A DNA stretch of 49,737 nt, from IMG/VR virus record IMGVR_UViG_3300042525_000443, positions 1 to 49,737 of that record; one strand, written 5' to 3'. Of the stretch, positions 7,845-40,426 are shown in pieces. This stretch comes from a virus. Within the stretch, counting starts at the first letter, position 1; each line of letters opens with the position of its first letter. Below the pieces are notes generated by a model, which saw only the letters and a list, made by a program, of their open reading frames with translations, made no database searches and was not told where the DNA came from. The translations under genes were made by a program, and so were the position numbers.

Positions 7845-9164
7845 ATGGCCATCACCGTCCAATACTCTCCGGACGCCCAACTCGTCGCCAAGGCTGCGAT
7901 GACCTCGGGGGCGGGCGACTACAACCGCTTCGCCCAGCAGCAGCAGCTTGCGCGCGACGAACTGAACCAGCGCCGCGACCTGACGATGTTGCAGGTGGCC
8001 GATGGTCAGTACCAGCAGAAGCTCGGCATCCTCGACGGCCAGTACCGGCAGACGCAGCAGATTCAGGCGTCTCAGACGGAGCAACTGCGCAACCTCGCCC
8101 AGCAGACGGCGATGGCGCAGTACGACGCGGGGAACCAGAATTGGCGGTTCGGCGTCGGCATCGCCAATGACCGGTCGATGCAGGACCAACGGCTGGCGGT
8201 CGGGTTGCAACAGCAGCAGAACGATATCTCGTCCACGGAGTATCGCCAGCAGCAGCAGCTTGCCCAACAAAACCTCTCCGACATGCGGAACATCCAAGCG
8301 CAGAATCAGCGCACGGCGATGTCCCTGCAAATGGAGCGGCAGAACACGATGATGCAGTTGCAGGCCCGGCAGCAATCCGAGCGATTCCAGGCACAGCAGC
8401 AGTACGGCATGGCGATGCTCGACGGCCAGCAGAAGGCCGAGTTGATGGGCCTGAACGCGAATCTTGACGCAAAGCAACAAGCTGCCGATCAGGCGAACCG
8501 CATTGAGCAGTTGAACCTGTCGAAGAAGAATCAACTCGACCTGTCGAGCACGCTGGCGGACAAGGAGTTCCGACAGAAGAACTTTCTCGACGAGTATGGC
8601 AAGTATTACGACTCGATGGCGCAGCGGGAGTACGAAACTCGATGGGGCGGGTTCAACGCAAAGATGGACGCGGCCAATAAGTGGCTGGACCAGACGGGCA
8701 TGAAAGACGACCCGAATGTAAGGGCACAAATTGAGTGGCAATTGACCAACGAAGCGATGGGCATCAAGGCCCGCGCCCCGATCTATTCCGACGCCGAATG
8801 GAAGTTCAAGAACGGGCTGGTGGAGTACAAGGGCGAGAAGTTCATGGCGACGGATCGGGGCTTTGAGGCGTTGCCGAACCCGAACGCACGGATGGAAGAA
8901 GTGCGATTGCGTGGCGTCAACGAAGCCGTGTCGACCAGCATGAAGATGGCATACGACCGCTCGAACGCGGTGTACGAATCCCTGATGCAGCAGGCTGCCA
9001 GCGCCACAATCCCGCCCGGCGTGAACCCAGCAGCGTTCCAAGCCGAGATGCGATTGCAGGCTCTCCAGAAATCGCGAGAGGCGTACACGACGACGATGCG
9101 GGAAGCGATTGAGTGGACGACCGGCGTGACCGGAACGTCCGTGGCCGATGTGGCAGGCATGTGA
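7845..9164 (+). CDS. Glutamine-rich coiled-coil internal virion protein
   Basis: A 439-residue protein that starts three bases after the previous stop. Residues ~25-235 are an almost unbroken Q/A/L/M-rich helix with coiled-coil character (many QQQ runs, e.g. QQQLARDELNQRRD and LQMERQNTMMQLQARQQ). A more globular, charged helical domain follows (residues ~236-439, e.g. YETRWGGFNAKMDAANKWL). This resembles the middle member of the three-protein internal core or ejection set of short-tailed phages, but no specific homology can be claimed. Its neighbours, the 1054-aa and ~1980-aa proteins, support that reading. Confidence 0.6.
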   Translation: MAITVQYSPDAQLVAKAAMTSGAGDYNRFAQQQQLARDELNQRRDLTMLQVADGQYQQKLGILDGQYRQTQQIQASQTEQLRNLAQQTAMAQYDAGNQNWRFGVGIANDRSMQDQRLAVGLQQQQNDISSTEYRQQQQLAQQNLSDMRNIQAQNQRTAMSLQMERQNTMMQLQARQQSERFQAQQQYGMAMLDGQQKAELMGLNANLDAKQQAADQANRIEQLNLSKKNQLDLSSTLADKEFRQKNFLDEYGKYYDSMAQREYETRWGGFNAKMDAANKWLDQTGMKDDPNVRAQIEWQLTNEAMGIKARAPIYSDAEWKFKNGLVEYKGEKFMATDRGFEALPNPNARMEEVRLRGVNEAVSTSMKMAYDRSNAVYESLMQQAASATIPPGVNPAAFQAEMRLQALQKSREAYTTTMREAIEWTTGVTGTSVADVAGM

Positions 9165-9178
9165 AAGGAAAGGGTGCG

Positions 9179-12100
9179 ATGCCTTACCGCATCCCGACGA
9201 TTGAAGAGTTGACCTCCGACGCTCTGGAATCCCTCAAGGCCCGTGGCTTCGGTGACTTCACCGAGCCAAAGCCTTTTGTCGATCCTGCGTTGCAACCCGG
9301 CTTCCGCGTGAAGACGGGTGACGAACTGTCCGGATACACGCGCGAGCTTCCTGACGCGGAGTCTGCGCGGCTTGGGCGGGAGTACACGGCGGCGGGCGGC
9401 AATGACCGCAATGCTTTCGCCTTGAGTCCCCTCACGCAAGTTCCGCAGTTCGCACACAGCACGTTCGACTTGTTCGGCTCGGCACTCGAAGGGATCGGCG
9501 AAGGGATCACGGCAACCGCTGGCGCGGTGGTCGACCCGCTGGCGTACATGAGCGGTAACGGTACGCCGGTCGGCGACTACCTGCTCCAAAACGAGCGGCT
9601 GAAGTCGGAGATGGGGCGAGGCGGGTACTCGAACTTCTTCTCGAACGTGGCGAAGTCGGCGACGAAAGTGTTCTCGGCGGCGGCTGCCCCAGGTACGGCG
9701 GCGGTGCGTGCTGGTGCCGTGGCCCTGAATATGTTCGCGGAACCTGCCGCGCAGAGCTACCGGCGGGCAAAGGAAGCGGGCTGGCAAGAGAACGCGGCGC
9801 TGGCCTACGGGGCGGCGCACGGGGCTGTCGAAGCGGGGACGGAGTTCCTGCTGGACAAGACGCCTCTTGGCGGTCTGTCGAAAGATGCGGCTAAGATGTT
9901 CAGCCGTGCCGTGGCTGGCGACTTGGCGAAGGTCGCGGCTGGCGGCTTGGCTGCGAAGCTGGCGCAGACGGCACGGTCGGCGGCGGGCGAGGGGCTGGAA
10001 GAGGTCGCTGCGTTCGTGCTGGGCGATTGGGTGGATCGTGCGGCGGCGAACATGACCGGCGACAACCGGCTGCAAAAGCAGTACGGAACGTGGAACGAAT
10101 ACCTCTGGGACGCGGCACAGTCCTTTGCGCTGGGGGCTGCTGCCGGTGGCCTGATCTCTGGTGGGATTCAGGCGGTCAATTGGGCTAACACGCAAGAGGC
10201 GTTGCGGCAAATCGCTTCCGGTCAAGGAACCCCGAATGTCACTCCAGAACCGACGCCGCTTGCGGACCCGACACTTCCGGTTCAACCGACAGGCCCGAGC
10301 GGCGCGAATCCGGTCGATCCGGGACAAGTCGAACCGCAGATAGGTGGTCGGACACCCGGCCCGTCTTCGCTGACGCAAGCGGTTCCGTTGAACGAACCGC
10401 TGTCGATGCCGAACACGAACATGCCATCCGTGCCGGTCGATGATCCGATCCAAGACCCCGGAGACGATCCGTACTTCGACCGGGGAATGACTGCGCTCGA
10501 CAAATCCAACCCGGAGATGCTCGAAACGAGGCGCGAGGTCGCGTCAAAGCCAGCGGAAGTCGTCGCGAAGATCGCGGCATTGGAGAAGTCATCGCGGTCC
10601 GCCTTCGCGGAGGCAATGGGCGTCGACCGGTCGAAGCTGCCGAACACGCTGGACACGCCAGCCAAGCGAGCCTTTGCCGTTGAGGTGGCGAAGAGGGTCC
10701 AAGCCTTCGCGCAGCAGCAGGCCGCACGCAAGCAGAGCGAACCGCCACAGGCAGAGCCAGAGAAAACCGGTGGCGTGTTCGACGTGATGGAACGGCTCAT
10801 GCCCGGTGCCGTCCGAAACGGTTCGCTTCTGGGCGTTCGTGATGTTCGGGCCGAGTTCCCGAATCTGTCGAAGGAGCAATTCGACCGTGGCATTCTGCGG
10901 ATGTCGCAAGAGGGGAAGGTGTCGCTGCACAAGCACGACGCTCCCGGCCAGTTGTCGCCGCAAGAACGCGACGCACTGATTACGGATGGGAAGGGGAACT
11001 TTTACGTTGGGATGGCGGCGCGGGGGGCATCCGGCAAAATCGGCACGCGAGCGGCGCAGCAATCCGACGAATCGATGGATCAGTCGGAAGAATCCGCCGA
11101 CCTCGGGCCACGCAAGCCAGCGGTGACGAACACGAACGTCCCCAATCCGTCCGACCCGGTGACGCGGATCATCAACGCGATGACGCCAGCGGTGCGCGAA
11201 AAGGTCGCGAAAATCCGCAACCTGCACATGCGCAATTTCGCCAAAGCGATGGGGCTGGCAAACATCAACCAGTTGCCGCCCGAGCTTGGCGACCCGACGA
11301 ATCGCGGCAAGGTGGTGGCCCTGCTGAACAGGATGGGCGAAGACCCTGAGACTCGGGCACCGGTGGCGTCCGCGAAGGGGCAGGCGACATACGCGAACAG
11401 CAAGGGGAACCAGGGTGTTCGTGGCACGCCGACCGGCCAGAACATCGATGGTCCGTCTGCGGGAGATATCGCCAGCGGCAAGCGAGTCACGGAGTTGGTG
11501 AAGACCGCCGCCGAGTCTGTGCTACGGAATGGCAACTACGACATCCCCCTGAATGAGATGAAGGGGGGCGGGAATGTGCGGGGTGCGTTCAATCGACGCA
11601 TCGGCGCTGCGAGCGTGGATTCTCGCACGAACTTCCCGACCGTCTTCCACGAAATGGGGCACGCCGTCGAGTTGGGTGACAACGTGGTGCTGACGCCCAA
11701 GGTCGGCGGCAAGGCTGAGTCGCAACTGCGGACGATTGGAAAGCATCAAACCAAAACGGGGGGATACGCCGCCAGAGAAGTCATGCGGGAGGGCCGCGCC
11801 GAGTTCATTCGGCTGTACGTTCAGGAAGGACCGGCGTTCCTCAAGCAAGAGTATCCGGAACTGTTTGATCACTTCATCAAGACGATGGAAGAGCGTCACC
11901 CTCGGGCGCTGCTGAATCTGACCGCCGCCGCTGCCGAGTACAACATGCTCATCCGCAAGATGAACGCGGTGGACCGGGCTGGCGACCGGATCGCGGACCG
12001 CAAGGGGCTGATGGATTACCTCAAGAAGTACACCGGGCACGAGTATTGGCGTGGCCTGTGGGAGCGGGCCAACGGGGCGTTCATCGACATCGCCGAAGTC

Positions 12101-15100
12101 TCCAACCGCATGGACAAGGCGGCGCGGGAGTACAGCAAGCAGGTGCTGGGCGTCGAGCTTGGCATCCCGGATAGGCTGCGCCCCGACAAGATGCTGGTGT
12201 ATCTGCACGGCTTGGCGTCGAGCCATACGCAAATGTGGCTGGACAGCCAGCCGGTCATGTGGGACGGCACGCGGCAAGGGAAGTCGCTGCGGGAATTGCT
12301 GGCCCCCCTGCTCGGCAAGAAGGAGTGGATCGACGCTTTTAACCGCTTGCTGCTGGCGAAGCGTACATTCGCTCTGCAAGACCCCGACACGTTGGACCGG
12401 ATGAACGACGCCCGCGTGTTGCAGTTCATGAACAATGCCGGGATGGTGCAGGTCGATCCGAACCAACAGGGTCCGGACCCCGACATGCGAAGCCCGAACG
12501 TCACGATCAAGCGAATCGACCCGCGAGCGACGGGGCTGTCCCTCACGGATGCGACCGCCGCAATCAAGCTGCTCGAAGCGGAGTTCGACGGAACCAACGG
12601 CAAGCCGAACTTCAAGGAGATTCTGGACGACTACTACGAGTTCCACGACCTGCTCCTGCAGTACGCCGCCGACGCATCCCCGACGCTGCGGTTGTCGGTG
12701 GATCGCATCCGTGCGGTGAACGAGGACGGCATCCCGCTCGGCGACCCCGGTGCCTACGTCCCGTTGCTCCGTGACTTTGAAGACGAGCGGACGGCAAGCC
12801 CCACGGCATCCGCCGCTTCGGGGCAGCTTGGACGCCGTTTGATTGGTAGCGACCGCCAGATCAAAGACCCGCTGATGGCGACGGTCATGAATCTGGAAGC
12901 CCGCCTCACCGCGATTCACGAGCGTGTCATGCTGGAAACCGTGCTGGCGATGGCGGACACCCCGAAGATTCCGGGATTGGCCCCGTTCATCCTCAAGCTG
13001 GCGGACGGAGAATCCGGCAAGGATGGGCTAGCGACGTTCGAGGCGGTGGACCGCTCGGGCAAGCTGGCCCGCTACCAAATCAACGATCAGGGTGTCGTGC
13101 GGCTGCTGCACGCGATGGACCCGGTCGCGTTTGCCGGTCGCATGATGGGCGGCAAGATCATCGACAGGTTCGTTGTCGGGCCGAACCGCATCCTCAAGAA
13201 CTTCGCCACGGGGTTCAATCCCCGCTTCGCGTTCCTCACGCAAACAATCTTCTCGATCCCGGAAATGCTGGCCATCGGTGGATCGTTTGCGGACCCGAAC
13301 AAGGCGAACGAGGCGACGAACCTGCTCCAAGCGACGATTCGCCGTGGAAAGAATCACTGGGAATTGATGGGTCAGATGATGGTCAACATGCTGGCGATTG
13401 CCGCCAAGAAGTCGACCATCGACCGCTTCGTCCCCGGCCAATACTTCCAGAACATCATCGCCCAGTTGGAGCAAGCGCGGGCGGACGGGGTGACGTTCGA
13501 GACGAGCATCCGCAACGACGAATCCGTGGCGTGGAACATTTCCCGCAACGTGGCTGGTCGGACGCCCCACCAGATCATGAACGAAGACGGCGGCATGGCC
13601 CTGTTCAAGTGGGGCCTGACGGAAGTTCCGCGTTGGATCGGATCGGCGTTTGGGACCGTCCCGGAAGCCGCCGCGCTGGCGGTGTATCAGTCGAAGCTAC
13701 GGGAATTGGGCCTCAAGCCCGGCGACGCGAAGACGCTCGAACAGCGGATGGACGTGGCCGAAGCCGTGAAGGAGTCGACCGGCAACTACGCCCGTCGCGG
13801 TTCCACAATGCGGTATCTGGAGAAGCTGCGCCCGTACTCGTCCGCCGGTGTGGTTCACGGCATGTCGCTGCTGCGGGCCATCAAGAATGATCCGCTGAAC
13901 GTCACGCAGGTCATGGGCTACGCGACGATCCTCGGGCTGCTGGCCGTGGCCAAGGCGATGGAAGACGACGAGTACCTGGAGGCGGATATCACGCAGAAGA
14001 TTAAGTACCTGCACGTCAAGCACGACGGCAAGTGGTATCTGCTGCCGCAGTATTCCGAGTTCGGGCTGATGACGCATGGGGCCGCTGTGGTGGCATTGCA
14101 CGCATTGAAGGGCCAGAACGAGGATGCTTTCCGTGGTCTGATGGAAGGCGTGAAGTCGCTGAGCCTGAGCGTGCTGGGCTACTCTGCCGCGACCGGCGTC
14201 CCCGTCATGGACGAAGCTCTGTCGCAACTCATGAACGAGGACGTGCGGCAGGGCGACAACATCGCGTTTCGGGCGGCTGGGTTGGCGGATCGCGCCGGGG
14301 CGCCCATCGTTCCGAACTACCGCGACATGCGAGAGGGTGACGTTCAGCCGACCGTGGTTTCCAAGCGAGAGGCGAGCCAGCAGTACACCGACAAGACGAC
14401 GCCACTGGCATGGCTGGCCGGTTTCGCTGGCGCATCTCCCATGCGTGTCGAGCACGCAGCGGACGCCATGACGGGCGGCCAGTTCTCCAACTTCCAGAAG
14501 GTATTCACCGAAGCCGACCCGCTGCGTGTCATCGCCCCCAAGACGCGGAAGGAAGGGGAGTTGTCGTACCGCGACAAGTCGACCGAGTTTCTGTACGACA
14601 AGATCAAGGAAGCCAACGAGCGGTCGAACGATCCCCGCCGCAAGGAAACCGAGGCGGATCGCGACAAGCGGCTGATGCTCGAAGCTGCCGACCGCGCCCG
14701 TGACGCATGGTCCGCCTTGCAGCGTGCGACGAAAGACCCCGACAAGATCAAGGAATACGCCGCCAAGAAGCGTGACGTGTCCCGCGTGGCCGTCGAGCAA
14801 TACGAGAAGGGGGACGTGTCGAAGTCCGCGTTCGCCGTTCAGGAGCGTGTGGCGAGTCTGCTGCTGGCCAAGGAGTGGGGGCAGGACGAAGAGGCCCGCA
14901 AGCTGATCGCCAATGGTGTAGACGACCTGACTCGGTTCCGCCCGGTGAAGCGGGACGAAGTGGATCGCTGGACGGAAGACACGCAAAAGGCTCGCGACTT
15001 CATCAAGGAGTCGGGACTGTCTCGGGATGAGATTCTGACCGCCTACCGCGAGCACATGGCCGAGTCGACGATTTCCGCGACCGCCAAGGCTGGTAAGCTC

Positions 15101-15127
15101 AACCGCCTACGGAGCGCCCTGCGATGA
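9179..15127 (+). CDS. Giant internal virion protein with HEMGH zinc-metallopeptidase motif (polyvalent)
   Basis: 1982 aa; the ATG at 9179 follows a strong site (AAAGGAAAGG). Residues ~1-330 include amphipathic or hydrophobic glycine/alanine stretches. Residues ~340-450 are a proline-rich linker. At 824-828 there is HEMGH, with E875 in a GRAEFIRLYV helix about 50 residues later: the HExxH...E arrangement of gluzincin-type zinc peptidases. The C-terminal ~1000 residues are largely helical and include an aromatic-rich region (KLRPYSSAGVVHGMSLLRAI) reminiscent of the large-polyvalent-protein-associated domains of phage ejected proteins. It is probably ejected with DNA and may cut cell-wall peptides or a host protein. 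The motif is certain; the function is inferred. Confidence 0.7.
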   Translation: MPYRIPTIEELTSDALESLKARGFGDFTEPKPFVDPALQPGFRVKTGDELSGYTRELPDAESARLGREYTAAGGNDRNAFALSPLTQVPQFAHSTFDLFGSALEGIGEGITATAGAVVDPLAYMSGNGTPVGDYLLQNERLKSEMGRGGYSNFFSNVAKSATKVFSAAAAPGTAAVRAGAVALNMFAEPAAQSYRRAKEAGWQENAALAYGAAHGAVEAGTEFLLDKTPLGGLSKDAAKMFSRAVAGDLAKVAAGGLAAKLAQTARSAAGEGLEEVAAFVLGDWVDRAAANMTGDNRLQKQYGTWNEYLWDAAQSFALGAAAGGLISGGIQAVNWANTQEALRQIASGQGTPNVTPEPTPLADPTLPVQPTGPSGANPVDPGQVEPQIGGRTPGPSSLTQAVPLNEPLSMPNTNMPSVPVDDPIQDPGDDPYFDRGMTALDKSNPEMLETRREVASKPAEVVAKIAALEKSSRSAFAEAMGVDRSKLPNTLDTPAKRAFAVEVAKRVQAFAQQQAARKQSEPPQAEPEKTGGVFDVMERLMPGAVRNGSLLGVRDVRAEFPNLSKEQFDRGILRMSQEGKVSLHKHDAPGQLSPQERDALITDGKGNFYVGMAARGASGKIGTRAAQQSDESMDQSEESADLGPRKPAVTNTNVPNPSDPVTRIINAMTPAVREKVAKIRNLHMRNFAKAMGLANINQLPPELGDPTNRGKVVALLNRMGEDPETRAPVASAKGQATYANSKGNQGVRGTPTGQNIDGPSAGDIASGKRVTELVKTAAESVLRNGNYDIPLNEMKGGGNVRGAFNRRIGAASVDSRTNFPTVFHEMGHAVELGDNVVLTPKVGGKAESQLRTIGKHQTKTGGYAAREVMREGRAEFIRLYVQEGPAFLKQEYPELFDHFIKTMEERHPRALLNLTAAAAEYNMLIRKMNAVDRAGDRIADRKGLMDYLKKYTGHEYWRGLWERANGAFIDIAEVSNRMDKAAREYSKQVLGVELGIPDRLRPDKMLVYLHGLASSHTQMWLDSQPVMWDGTRQGKSLRELLAPLLGKKEWIDAFNRLLLAKRTFALQDPDTLDRMNDARVLQFMNNAGMVQVDPNQQGPDPDMRSPNVTIKRIDPRATGLSLTDATAAIKLLEAEFDGTNGKPNFKEILDDYYEFHDLLLQYAADASPTLRLSVDRIRAVNEDGIPLGDPGAYVPLLRDFEDERTASPTASAASGQLGRRLIGSDRQIKDPLMATVMNLEARLTAIHERVMLETVLAMADTPKIPGLAPFILKLADGESGKDGLATFEAVDRSGKLARYQINDQGVVRLLHAMDPVAFAGRMMGGKIIDRFVVGPNRILKNFATGFNPRFAFLTQTIFSIPEMLAIGGSFADPNKANEATNLLQATIRRGKNHWELMGQMMVNMLAIAAKKSTIDRFVPGQYFQNIIAQLEQARADGVTFETSIRNDESVAWNISRNVAGRTPHQIMNEDGGMALFKWGLTEVPRWIGSAFGTVPEAAALAVYQSKLRELGLKPGDAKTLEQRMDVAEAVKESTGNYARRGSTMRYLEKLRPYSSAGVVHGMSLLRAIKNDPLNVTQVMGYATILGLLAVAKAMEDDEYLEADITQKIKYLHVKHDGKWYLLPQYSEFGLMTHGAAVVALHALKGQNEDAFRGLMEGVKSLSLSVLGYSAATGVPVMDEALSQLMNEDVRQGDNIAFRAAGLADRAGAPIVPNYRDMREGDVQPTVVSKREASQQYTDKTTPLAWLAGFAGASPMRVEHAADAMTGGQFSNFQKVFTEADPLRVIAPKTRKEGELSYRDKSTEFLYDKIKEANERSNDPRRKETEADRDKRLMLEAADRARDAWSALQRATKDPDKIKEYAAKKRDVSRVAVEQYEKGDVSKSAFAVQERVASLLLAKEWGQDEEARKLIANGVDDLTRFRPVKRDEVDRWTEDTQKARDFIKESGLSRDEILTAYREHMAESTISATAKAGKLNRLRSALR

Positions 15128-17598: not shown

Positions 17599-18525
17599 TT
17601 AAGCAATGTCGGCAGCAAACAGGGCAACAGAGACATTCGCGGGTCGCGGCATGAGGTCGCAGGCGTGCGGGCGCTCACCCACGGTCGGGTCCAGGTACTT
17701 CAAGGTCGTGCGTCGATCCGCGTGGCCGAGCAGTTCCGTGGCGTCACCACCGACCGCGTGGAAGTGGCTGGCGGCTGTCTTGCGGAGACAGTGGAACATG
17801 CACTCCCGGCGGGTGGGGAGATTGGCGTCGGCAAGGATTTTCTTGTACTTCGAGTAGATATGCGTCGGTGCACGGTCCCACTCGAAGACGCGGTCGGCAT
17901 CAGGCCGGAGCCGTCGCATCTCGCGCAGCAGGATCATCGTGTTCGCGTGGAGCTTGTGGGCCTTGTCTGCACGGCCACCCTTGCGTCCCTCGGCCCGCAC
18001 GATGGCGAACCCGGATTCCCAGTTGATGTTCTGCCACTCCAGCGTCATGACCCCGCCGATGCGTTCGGCGCTGTCGTAGAACACGGAGCACAGCGCCCGC
18101 CACCAGATGCGGCCCGGAATGCCGGAGATGGAATACTCGACGCGGTTCGTGGCATCGAACAGGGCGGCAAGCTGGGCTTGTGTCCATGCGAAGGGGATGC
18201 GGGTTGGTTCCTTCATCTTGTTGATGACGGGAAACGTCGCCATGTGTCCGTTCTTGGCGAGGAACGTCCAGAGCGCTTGGACGTTGTCGCGGAACTTGTT
18301 GCAGGTCCTGGGCGCTGACGGACAGCGGACGTGTGGATCGTCGCCGCGCTTCATCCAGTACATGACATCCTCGACCGTGTCGTTCGTCAGGTCGTCTGTC
18401 GTGGCGGGCCTGCCGAGGAAGCGGCTGAAGCGTTCAATGCTCATGTGAAACTGGTTGAACGTGCTGGGTTTGCCGTCCCTGAGTTTCCTGCGGGCGTAAA
18501 GGTCGAAGGCGTCGCTGAGGAGCAT
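17599..18525 (-). CDS. int: Tyrosine recombinase / phage integrase
   Basis: 308 aa. An N-terminal SAM-like core-binding domain (~1-105) precedes the catalytic domain. Expected active-site residues are visible: R155 in SAERIGG, a candidate Lys in the GRADKAHK region (~185-191), H245-x-x-R248 in FHCLRKTAAS, H268 in ELLGHADRRTT and the nucleophile Y277 in TLKYLDP. It catalyses site-specific integration and, with an excisionase, excision. It heads a leftward operon with a zinc protein and a membrane protein. An inverted repeat upstream (18569-18591) could bind a regulator or serve as arm sites. Length and motifs are normal for phage integrases. Confidence 0.95.
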   Translation of the reverse strand: MLLSDAFDLYARRKLRDGKPSTFNQFHMSIERFSRFLGRPATTDDLTNDTVEDVMYWMKRGDDPHVRCPSAPRTCNKFRDNVQALWTFLAKNGHMATFPVINKMKEPTRIPFAWTQAQLAALFDATNRVEYSISGIPGRIWWRALCSVFYDSAERIGGVMTLEWQNINWESGFAIVRAEGRKGGRADKAHKLHANTMILLREMRRLRPDADRVFEWDRAPTHIYSKYKKILADANLPTRRECMFHCLRKTAASHFHAVGGDATELLGHADRRTTLKYLDPTVGERPHACDLMPRPANVSVALFAADIA

Positions 18526-19217: not shown

Positions 19218-19436
19218 ATGTCGAACCCTCTCGGGTTTGTCTCAACGCCGGTCAGGGCGTTGAACGGTTTCGTGCTCGACGCGAACGGCAAAGTGCTGGC
19301 GAACTGCCACAGCAATGATGTCGGAGAGGTCGGGACGTTGGTTGTTTCAGCCATCGTCGCCAAGGCCCTCGATATTGCCGCGCGAGACATGAGCGAGTTC
19401 TTGGACCAAGACCCCGACAACGTGGGTTCGGTCTAA
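19218..19436 (+). CDS. Small hypothetical protein (72 aa)
   Basis: The ATG at 19218 was chosen because GGGAAG lies seven bases upstream; an in-frame ATG at 19191 falls inside a hairpin. The product contains a short two-strand element with a turn (LNGFVLDANGKVLANC) and a long helix (LVVSAIVAKALDIAARDM) ending in an acidic tail. The G-x-V-L-D-A-N-G-K-V-L-A pattern is often seen in small phage proteins, but no function is known. It is the first gene of the RNA-rich region upstream of csrA. Confidence 0.55.
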   Translation: MSNPLGFVSTPVRALNGFVLDANGKVLANCHSNDVGEVGTLVVSAIVAKALDIAARDMSEFLDQDPDNVGSV

Positions 19437-19456
19437 GCAAGCAACTCCCCCGGTGG

Positions 19457-19551
19457 CGGTCGTTGGTTTGGCGACCGATCCGGCGTGCAGGCCCATGTCG
19501 CGTAGCGGGCTTTGTGTACTTGGCCTTGGGGGCGTGTTCGACCCGCACGCC
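19457..19551 (+). ncRNA. Structured spacer with three stem-loops
   Basis: Between the 72-aa and 39-aa ORFs there are three hairpins: CGGTCG/CGACCG around a 9-base loop (19457-19477), AGGCCC/GGGCTT (19489-19512) and GGCGTG/CACGCC around TTCGACCCG (19531-19551). The last loop contains TTCGACC, which resembles a tRNA T-loop, but no matching acceptor strand was found. It may be a structured RNA or part of the leader of the next ORF. Confidence 0.3.
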
Positions 19552-19589
19552 TAGCTAAACGTGGGCAGGGTCTTTCTTTGGAGCAACAC

Positions 19590-19709
19590 ATGGACGTTGT
19601 GCTCGGCGAGTTCGTGCTGACGGACCACGCGATTGGCGGTGGGGTCTGCCTGCTGGTGGCCGTGTTGACCGCCGTGGCGTTCTCGCTGCAAGGCGACAAG
19701 CGAATGTGA
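19590..19709 (+). CDS. Tiny membrane protein (39 aa)
   Basis: An ATG at 19590 with GGAG seven bases upstream gives MDVVLGEFVLTDHAIGGGVCLLVAVLTAVAFSLQGDKRM when read in pieces: a short acidic start, one hydrophobic helix (~residues 15-33) and a basic end. The design is that of a single-pass inner-membrane micro-protein. It sits between two structured RNA stretches. No family can be named; the clear ribosome site and membrane segment support translation. Confidence 0.5.
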   Translation: MDVVLGEFVLTDHAIGGGVCLLVAVLTAVAFSLQGDKRM

Positions 19710-19722
19710 CGGATCGGTGAGT

Positions 19723-19741
19723 GCCCACGGATGGGCGTTTT
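19723..19741 (+). terminator. Short GCCCA/TGGGC hairpin with T run
   Basis: GCCCA (19723-19727), loop CGGA, TGGGC (19732-19736), then G and TTTT. This could be a weak intrinsic terminator after the 39-aa ORF. Its loop also presents an A-C-GGA-U sequence, the preferred context for CsrA binding, so it may instead be a CsrA site. Confidence 0.4.
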
Positions 19742-19861
19742 GGATCGGCGGCGTGGACGGTGACACGCGGCGATATCGGCGGAAGCCACTACCAAGGGCA
19801 TGGTGTCCCAGCGGCAGCGGATAATAAGTCTTCCTCGTGGGTTCGACTCCCGTCCGGTCCT
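19742..19861 (+). ncRNA. tRNA-like RNA module 1 (non-canonical, ~120 nt)
   Basis: The 5' GGATCGG (19742-19748) pairs over seven positions (one G-U) with CCGGTCC (19854-19860), like an acceptor stem. Next comes a D-arm-like hairpin GCGT/ACGC (19751-19768) with a GG-containing loop. Just before the 3' acceptor strand is a T-arm with loop TTCGACT (19837-19853), matching the B-box consensus. The middle is about 68 bases, too long for a normal anticodon arm plus variable loop, and no clear anticodon arm folds. No CCA is encoded. It may be a degenerate tRNA, an att-type tRNA fragment or a new tRNA-like RNA. Confidence 0.35.
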
Positions 19862-19969
19862 ATCGCTGACGAGCGGAAGAAACGGAGCGTGCGAAATGAA
19901 AGCCATTTGGTTTGGCCGAGAGGCCGACGGGTAAACCGGAGTCCAGCCACGGACGCAATCGTGGTGAAC

Positions 19970-20102
19970 GGATCGGCGGCGTGTGGGAAACGCATTACGA
20001 CAACGGGATGGAGTGGTGTAACGGGTTCAATGCCCGGCCTCGGCTGACGAAGTCGCAGAGCAAGTCGACCACTCAAAGCAGGTCCGAATCCTGCCCGATC
20101 CA
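19970..20102 (+). ncRNA. tRNA-like RNA module 2 (non-canonical, ~133 nt)
   Basis: It begins with the same 14 bases as module 1 (GGATCGGCGGCGTG). GGATCGG (19970-19976) pairs perfectly with CCGATCC (20095-20101). A D-arm-like GCGT/ACGC hairpin follows (19979-19993). A perfect 5-bp T-arm with loop TCCGAAT lies at 20078-20094. The middle (~84 bases) is again too long and contains a further T-arm-like CGGG/CCCG hairpin (20022-20036). The discriminator would be A20102, without encoded CCA. It ends 35 bases before csrA. Confidence 0.35.
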
Positions 20103-20125
20103 CTCGAAGCAACAACAACCACAAC

Positions 20126-20140
20126 AAGGAGGCAAGGATG
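20126..20140 (+). promoter_or_regulatory. csrA ribosome site with two GGA motifs
   Basis: AAGGAGG, then CAAGGATG where the final ATG is the csrA start. Two GGA triplets therefore overlap the Shine-Dalgarno sequence and the start codon. CsrA proteins bind A-N-GGA and in other systems repress their own translation at such sites. This would allow autoregulation; it is an inference from motif position. Confidence 0.5.
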
Positions 20141-20320
20141 CTGGTACTAACTCGCAAGGTGGACGAGACGATCTTCATTGGTGGCTACATCCGGATTCGG
20201 GTTGTCGACATTCGTGGCGACAAAGTGAAGCTGGGCATTGTTGCCCCCGAGGACCAGAAGGTTCTCCGCGACGACGCGAAGGAGCGGCAGCCAAAGCCAC
20301 GGAGGGCTGACGATGCGTGA
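20138..20320 (+). CDS. csrA: CsrA/RsmA-type RNA-binding translational regulator
   Basis: The 60-aa product begins MLVLTRKVDETIFIGG, the signature start of CsrA, and keeps the five-strand core (IRIRVVDIRGDKVKLGIVAPED) and the C-terminal VLRDD with the conserved arginine. CsrA is a swapped dimer that binds GGA motifs in mRNA leaders to block or stabilise translation. A phage copy could reprogram host metabolism or control phage genes. The short C-terminal tail is basic. It has a strong ribosome site that overlaps GGA motifs and lies downstream of a GGA-rich structured RNA region. The next gene starts eight bases before its stop. Confidence 0.93.
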   Translation: MLVLTRKVDETIFIGGYIRIRVVDIRGDKVKLGIVAPEDQKVLRDDAKERQPKPRRADDA

Positions 20321-40385: not shown

Positions 40386-40426
40386 CCCCCCGCGCGGAGT
40401 CGAACCGCGCTTAGGCCACTGGGGGA
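40386..40426 (-). ncRNA. tRNA acceptor/T-arm-like minihelix
   Basis: Minus strand: a perfect 6-bp stem GCGCGG/CCGCGC with a 7-base loop TTCGACT (a consensus T-loop) is flanked by CCCCC (40425-40421) and a GGGGG run (40391-40386), which pair like an acceptor stem. Ten bases (AGTGGCCTAA) separate the 5' strand from the T-stem, so there are no D or anticodon arms. It may be a tRNA-mimicking minihelix or a tRNA 3'-end relic such as an attachment site. Confidence 0.4.

Follow-up and report, generated by a model that had tools for sequence, protein, structure and literature searches.

The bacterial Y RNA YrlA joins tRNA-like D, T and acceptor arms to a second, non-decoding domain (PMC8394870), and tmRNA carries a tRNA-like acceptor and T-arm together with pseudoknots and is missing the anticodon arm. 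E. coli tRNA-Leu deprived of its anticodon and variable arms is still leucylated, provided that A73 and the tertiary contacts between the D- and T-arms are kept (PMC9976931). In phage-host conflict, RNA pseudoknots serve as decoys in the form of ToxI and viral pseudo-ToxI (PMC3475682, PMC5772629), and phages also bear the large structured RNAs GOLLD and ROOL, often near tRNAs (PMC12286853). Here we describe two phage modules, M1 and M2, that share features with these RNAs.

The modules are found in a 49.7-kb virus record (IMGVR_UViG_3300042525_000443), the whole 49,737 nt of which constitute the window analysed. It encodes tailed-phage proteins, including a terminase with only distant relatives among cultured phages, RecT, an SSB and a tyrosine integrase; a 2004-aa open reading frame is also seen at 9113-15127. 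M1 and M2 lie within the 428 nt that separate a small open reading frame (19590-19709) from a csrA gene, which begins 35 nt after the end of M2 and is its neighbour, any functional membership being only putative. No clear promoter was found. The features are:

17599-18525, minus strand: tyrosine integrase
19742-19861, plus strand: M1, a 120-nt type A tRNA-like RNA, complete (full-length match to the covariance model R1, see below)
19742-19748 / 19854-19860, plus strand: M1 acceptor, GGATCGG / CCGGTCC, one G-U
19751-19768, plus strand: M1 D-arm, GCGTG-GACGGTGA-CACGC
19769-19836, plus strand: M1 insert
19837-19853, plus strand: M1 T-arm, GTGGG-TTCGACT-CCCGT
19861, plus strand: M1 discriminator, T
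19970-20102, plus strand: M2, a 133-nt type A tRNA-like RNA, complete (full-length match to R1; also found by our own module detector)
19970-19976 / 20095-20101, plus strand: M2 acceptor, GGATCGG / CCGATCC, perfect pairing
19979-19993, plus strand: M2 D-arm, GCGT-GTGGGAA-ACGC
19994-20077, plus strand: M2 insert
20011-20017 / 20068-20074, plus strand: 7-bp helix in the M2 insert, GAGTGGT / ACCACTC (minimum-energy fold)
20021-20037, plus strand: third T-arm-like hairpin, within the M2 insert, 4/5 pairs
20078-20094, plus strand: M2 T-arm, GCAGG-TCCGAAT-CCTGC
20102, plus strand: M2 discriminator, A
20138-20320, plus strand: csrA, directly 3' of M2 (Pfam CsrA, E 5.5e-19; PHROG CsrA-like)

A preliminary description of this DNA had reported two modules of about 120 and 133 nt with a shared 14-base start, an acceptor stem, a D-arm and a T-arm, as well as a third T-arm-like hairpin and an integrase in the vicinity, and all of these are present in the window. 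Both modules begin with GGATCGGCGGCGTG (14/14 identical) and are otherwise alike only in short words. Each has the 7-bp acceptor, D-arm and T-arm with a consensus T-loop expected of a tRNA; position 55 of the M2 T-loop is C, and the acceptor pair 3-70 is A-U in both. The hairpin at 20021-20037 gives no separate match to R1. Elsewhere in the window, an isolated T-arm-like hairpin, CGCGGTTCGACTCCGCG (40393-40409, minus strand), stands without a matching acceptor or D-arm. Folding energy is by itself unconvincing (z of 0.03 and -1.26 for the window modules in single-sequence folding), and we judge the modules to be real because comparison with other phages shows it.

The family was traced from a search for CsrA relatives, in which tRNA-like modules were seen 5' of several phage csrA genes. 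A detector built around the three arms (acceptor, D and T) and a long gap picked up the 5' sequence of the window modules in other phages as well, and IMG/VR was scanned with three patterns that specified the D-arm and T-loop at their unusual spacing and left out the acceptor; a search with the bare 14-mer was discarded, as the matches listed were mostly due to chance. Related modules occur on well over 100 uncultured phage contigs, mostly fragments, and fall into two types. Type A, found in GC-rich phages with one to three modules per record, has a CGGCGTG..CACGC D-arm like that of the window modules, C8 instead of U8 and mostly A48; its acceptors are highly diverse (46 different among 61 modules) and its discriminator is mixed (28 A, 16 C, 11 T and 6 G in the same 61). 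Type B, with at least 93 modules, has a tRNA-Leu-like D-arm; among the matches listed, the acceptor is AGTCAGG in 54/93, and U8 (93/93), U48 (92/93) and A73 (72/93) predominate, with A14, A15, G18G19 and A20a being set by the search pattern. In one locus (L481:7183-12207) twelve type B modules crowd into 5 kb; they share a single scaffold and nearly the same 3' ends, most of them differ in their inserts, and a separate set of ordinary tRNAs adjoins them. On another contig, a tRNA array with a type A module among its members has, about 1.4 kb away, a sub-threshold match to the type III hammerhead ribozyme (L365:4383-4440, plus strand, 30.8 bits).

ARAGORN reports no tRNA and no tmRNA in the window, and Rfam 15 gives no match there at gathering scores and none in 19300-20300 even at E<=10. 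In contrast to these searches, a covariance model (R1) built from 49 type A modules of other phages, with the window sequence absent, matches both M1 (53.2 bits, E 3.3e-9) and M2 (50.7 bits, E 1.1e-8) at full length, the E-values being rough; the next-best match in the window scores 14.6 bits. Specificity is high: across 909 kb taken from other viral loci there are two matches, both of them tRNA-like modules. The two types are linked through R1, which matches type B modules as well, though with lower scores. With the Rfam tRNA model (RF00005), some type B modules reach 29-47 bits and those of type A go unrecognised. A BLAST search of the region and three family modules against about 50,000 annotated phage records recovered no related module. 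Judged from sequence comparison, M1 and M2 belong to a large family of phage RNAs that is unlisted in Rfam.

In host genomes the exact type A pattern has two matches in 84,980, both in Anaerolineae, and a class-wide search of hosts with the model added nothing to these two. In Bellilinea caldifistulae (L379) the module adjoins an FtsK-like ATPase gene, and the module of an Anaerolineae MAG (L380) has a tyrosine integrase at a distance of about 0.5 kb; these neighbourhoods point to possible prophages or mobile elements, and that of the former has, by our reading, the look of mobile DNA.

Covariation in relatives, on which the preliminary reading of the stems turned, is strong. Across the 49 type A sequences 99.3% of the cells are paired, with 168 double-change cells (equalled in 0/500 shuffles); two-sided changes are seen at every one of the seven acceptor pairs and at four of the five T-stem pairs, and sliding abolishes the signal. 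The D-stem is invariant in this set because the search pattern fixed the D-arm. Since the detector that supplied the set had itself required at least 6/7 acceptor pairs and a paired T-stem, the acceptor-blind patterns provide the test that matters: a perfect 7-bp acceptor is present in 139/205 of the distinct matches listed, as against 2/615 in the slid control. By pattern, the 7/7 pairing is seen in 33/55, 19/48 and 87/102 of the distinct matches listed, with the respective controls at 1/165, 1/144 and 0/306.

In place of the anticodon arm the modules have an insert of 42-133 nt that is variable in sequence and constrained in structure. A canonical anticodon arm (5-bp stem, 7-nt loop and U33) is no more frequent in the family than chance would give: it occurs in 2/61 type A modules, with 0.8 in shuffles, and in 3/93 type B modules among the matches listed, with 3.0 in shuffles. 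The preliminary description likewise gave the window modules no foldable anticodon arm. A stem of at least 6 bp beginning at most 4 nt from the D-arm is found in 17/53 type A inserts (6.2 expected) and, among the matches listed, in 23/80 of type B (14.3 expected). We scanned for H-type pseudoknots in which the loop of a third stem base-pairs with the stretch immediately 5' of the T-stem, using 30 shuffles per insert. The native sequence beats all 30 shuffles in 13/53 type A inserts (about 1.7 expected) and in 16/80 of type B among the matches listed (about 2.6 expected), and energies are on average 3.6-4.8 kcal/mol better than those of the shuffles; the gain is smaller when a hairpin-plus-hairpin alternative takes the place of the pseudoknot. 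Scanned alone, the M1 insert has no significant pseudoknot, and that of M2 is only suggestive, being equalled by 25/200 shuffles. The M2 helix at 20011-20074 stops 3 nt before the T-stem, the site of the pseudoknot 3' strand in relatives.

Compensatory changes also occur within homologous inserts. In L458/L474/L525 they affect both crossing helices of one pseudoknot. Helices read CCTGCGGG/CCCGCAGG versus CCTGCAGG/CCTGCAGG and, in L005/L460, TCACTG/TGGTGA versus GTACTG/TGGTAC; further cases are L318/L362, L334/L340, L357/L372 and L480/L531, the last pair having a long nested arm with no pseudoknot. The homologous insert of L005 and L460 is mounted on different scaffolds, one of type A and the other type-B-like. 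Given this exchange of scaffolds and the compensatory helices, the insert is a domain under selection that can be uncoupled from its frame. Internal T-arm hairpins with at least 4/5 pairs are present in 5/61 type A inserts (0.24 expected). Inserts with such a second, internal T-arm-like hairpin are those of L322, L392, L393, L418 and L419, besides the one at window 20021-20037. At the level of sequence, then, the comparison shows a conserved, covarying acceptor, D-arm and T-arm, with a structured insert, an H-type pseudoknot in many members, replacing the anticodon arm.

We examined the genomic context of the modules. Short gaps between co-directional genes accommodate 28/44 type A modules and, among the matches listed, 48/61 of type B; 16/44 of type A are without co-directional genes on both flanks. 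By our reading, most of the surrounding genes serve replication, recombination or nucleotide metabolism. A recurrent partner protein was sought among the module neighbours and none was found; hence it is probably host proteins on which the RNA depends. T-arm-bearing tRNAs or tRNA-like modules are present within 250 nt 5' of phage csrA at 11/129 loci, with about 1.4 expected (L124, L127, L130, L131, L136/L140, L138, L152/L153, L217 and L241), and several of these have 18-21 nt loops at the position of the 7-nt anticodon loop. A linkage to csrA as a general rule was rejected, csrA being present at only a few of the loci with type A modules in other phages. A CsrA sponge of the CsrB/RsmY type was likewise set aside: the region has 15 GGA motifs versus 12.0 +/- 2.6, and the family inserts have no excess.

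As to processing signals, CCA is encoded in 1/53 type A modules and, among the matches listed, 2/80 of type B, agreeing with its reported lack in M1 and M2. Among type A modules 43/53 have a T at most 2 nt from the discriminator, as do M1 and M2, whereas in the ordinary phage tRNAs of this set C or A is more frequent at that site; a U near the discriminator stimulates B. subtilis RNase Z about 200-fold (PMC10100781). At position -1 type A has no preference for T (17/53), so that its processing by RNase P would rest on the fold alone; in type B, T is seen in 58/80 among the matches listed. Given that no protein partner was found, processing by host RNase P and RNase Z is likely. With regard to amino-acid identity, type B keeps the leucine determinants listed in PMC9976931, partly as fixed by the pattern, while no common identity is apparent in type A.

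These features set the modules apart from the described RNAs. YrlA is of similar size; however, its ends pair in a large Ro-binding basal stem, whereas those of the modules pair in an acceptor stem as in tRNA. The Rfam model of YrlA has no match among the window modules or relatives tested, and a Ro60/Rsr (TROVE) gene is present in 1/50 records, possibly incomplete ones, and not in the window. tmRNA has the alanine identity pair G3-U70, while the modules have G-U at 3-70 in 1/49; they further differ from it in their length of 95-180 nt, with no tag reading frame seen and no ARAGORN tmRNA call in the window. Type B is like tRNA-Leu in its D-arm, T-arm and acceptor and in retaining LeuRS determinants; yet, unlike tRNA-Leu and phage tRNAs, the modules have no 7-nt anticodon loop and instead the 42-133 nt insert. 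ToxI has no tRNA frame, being made up of short tandem repeats, and finds no Rfam match in the modules; GOLLD and ROOL are much larger, and the modules have no Rfam match to either. As the modules fit the definition of neither YrlA nor tmRNA, they would form, with respect to the open-access literature, a separate and new family among the tRNA mimics.

We favour, with a probability of roughly 0.55, the reading that M1 and M2 are non-decoding tRNA-like RNA genes giving rise to a host-trimmed, stable RNA whose elbow is a scaffold presenting the insert, and which acts in trans. Host RNase P and RNase Z would trim the transcript at the acceptor ends, yielding a product of about 95-180 nt stabilised by its tRNA fold; the insert would be the presented cargo, and the RNA would act on a host factor instead of decoding codons. 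The simplest role would be that of a decoy or mimic occupying a tRNA-binding or RNA-binding protein, which is the most economical proposal because no protein partner was found among the neighbours, inserts diversify in arrays and phages already use RNA mimicry, as in pseudo-ToxI (PMC3475682). It is a more speculative and rather doubtful extension that the constant frame carries diversifying pseudoknots directed at RNA-binding defence proteins of the host, which they would imitate or block, with the arrays of up to twelve variants as a repertoire. The main rival, itself unlikely, is that the modules punctuate polycistronic phage mRNAs in cis as RNase P and RNase Z cut signals, here 5' of csrA, with the insert as filler. 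The location of about two thirds of the modules between co-directional genes and the short distance from M2 to csrA are consistent with this, and since these enzymes need only an acceptor and elbow, so is the near-randomness of type A acceptors. However, the type A modules lacking co-directional flanks, the structural constraint on inserts and their movement between scaffolds argue against it, and twelve modules in 5 kb would be superfluous for such a purpose.

Two further proposals keep the modules closer to tRNA. A charged RNA, in type B by LeuRS, might compete for a synthetase, EF-Tu or a transferase; the leucylation of armless tRNA-Leu variants and the type B residues U8, U48, mostly A73 and those fixed by the pattern would suit it, but the window modules are of type A, with its mixed discriminator, diverse acceptors, C8 and mostly A48, and we regard this as quite improbable. 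We give still less credence to the insert being an intron of a novel kind, spliced out to leave a decoding tRNA. Many inserts do open with a stem at the anticodon-stem position; nonetheless, they are short for group I introns, whose core takes about 200 nt or more, and in the records tested none matches an Rfam family. They also mostly lack a recoverable anticodon stem and occur as homologs on different scaffolds, and type A has neither a conserved discriminator nor U8. Phages often integrate at tRNA 3' ends, and the integrases near the window modules and in the Anaerolineae MAG would fit the suggestion in the preliminary description that these are degenerate tRNAs or attachment-site relics. 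We consider it barely tenable: degeneration is contradicted by the compensatory evolution that many phages show in the helices of acceptor, T-arm and insert, and relics would leave unexplained the complete, paired 5' and 3' halves, the conserved spacing in many unrelated phages, the twelve-module array and the paucity of exact matches in host genomes. The remaining suggestion made there, of tRNA mimics, is the one that the widespread family with its covarying acceptors and T-stems upholds.

The modules are common in uncultured phages, and yet BLAST probes of annotated phage records yielded none. If real in vivo, they would represent a large class of tRNA mimics in which the anticodon half has been swapped for other structured RNA. 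They would then be a case of RNA-based manipulation of the host, and some of the phage tRNAs labelled 'undetermined' may be no tRNAs at all.
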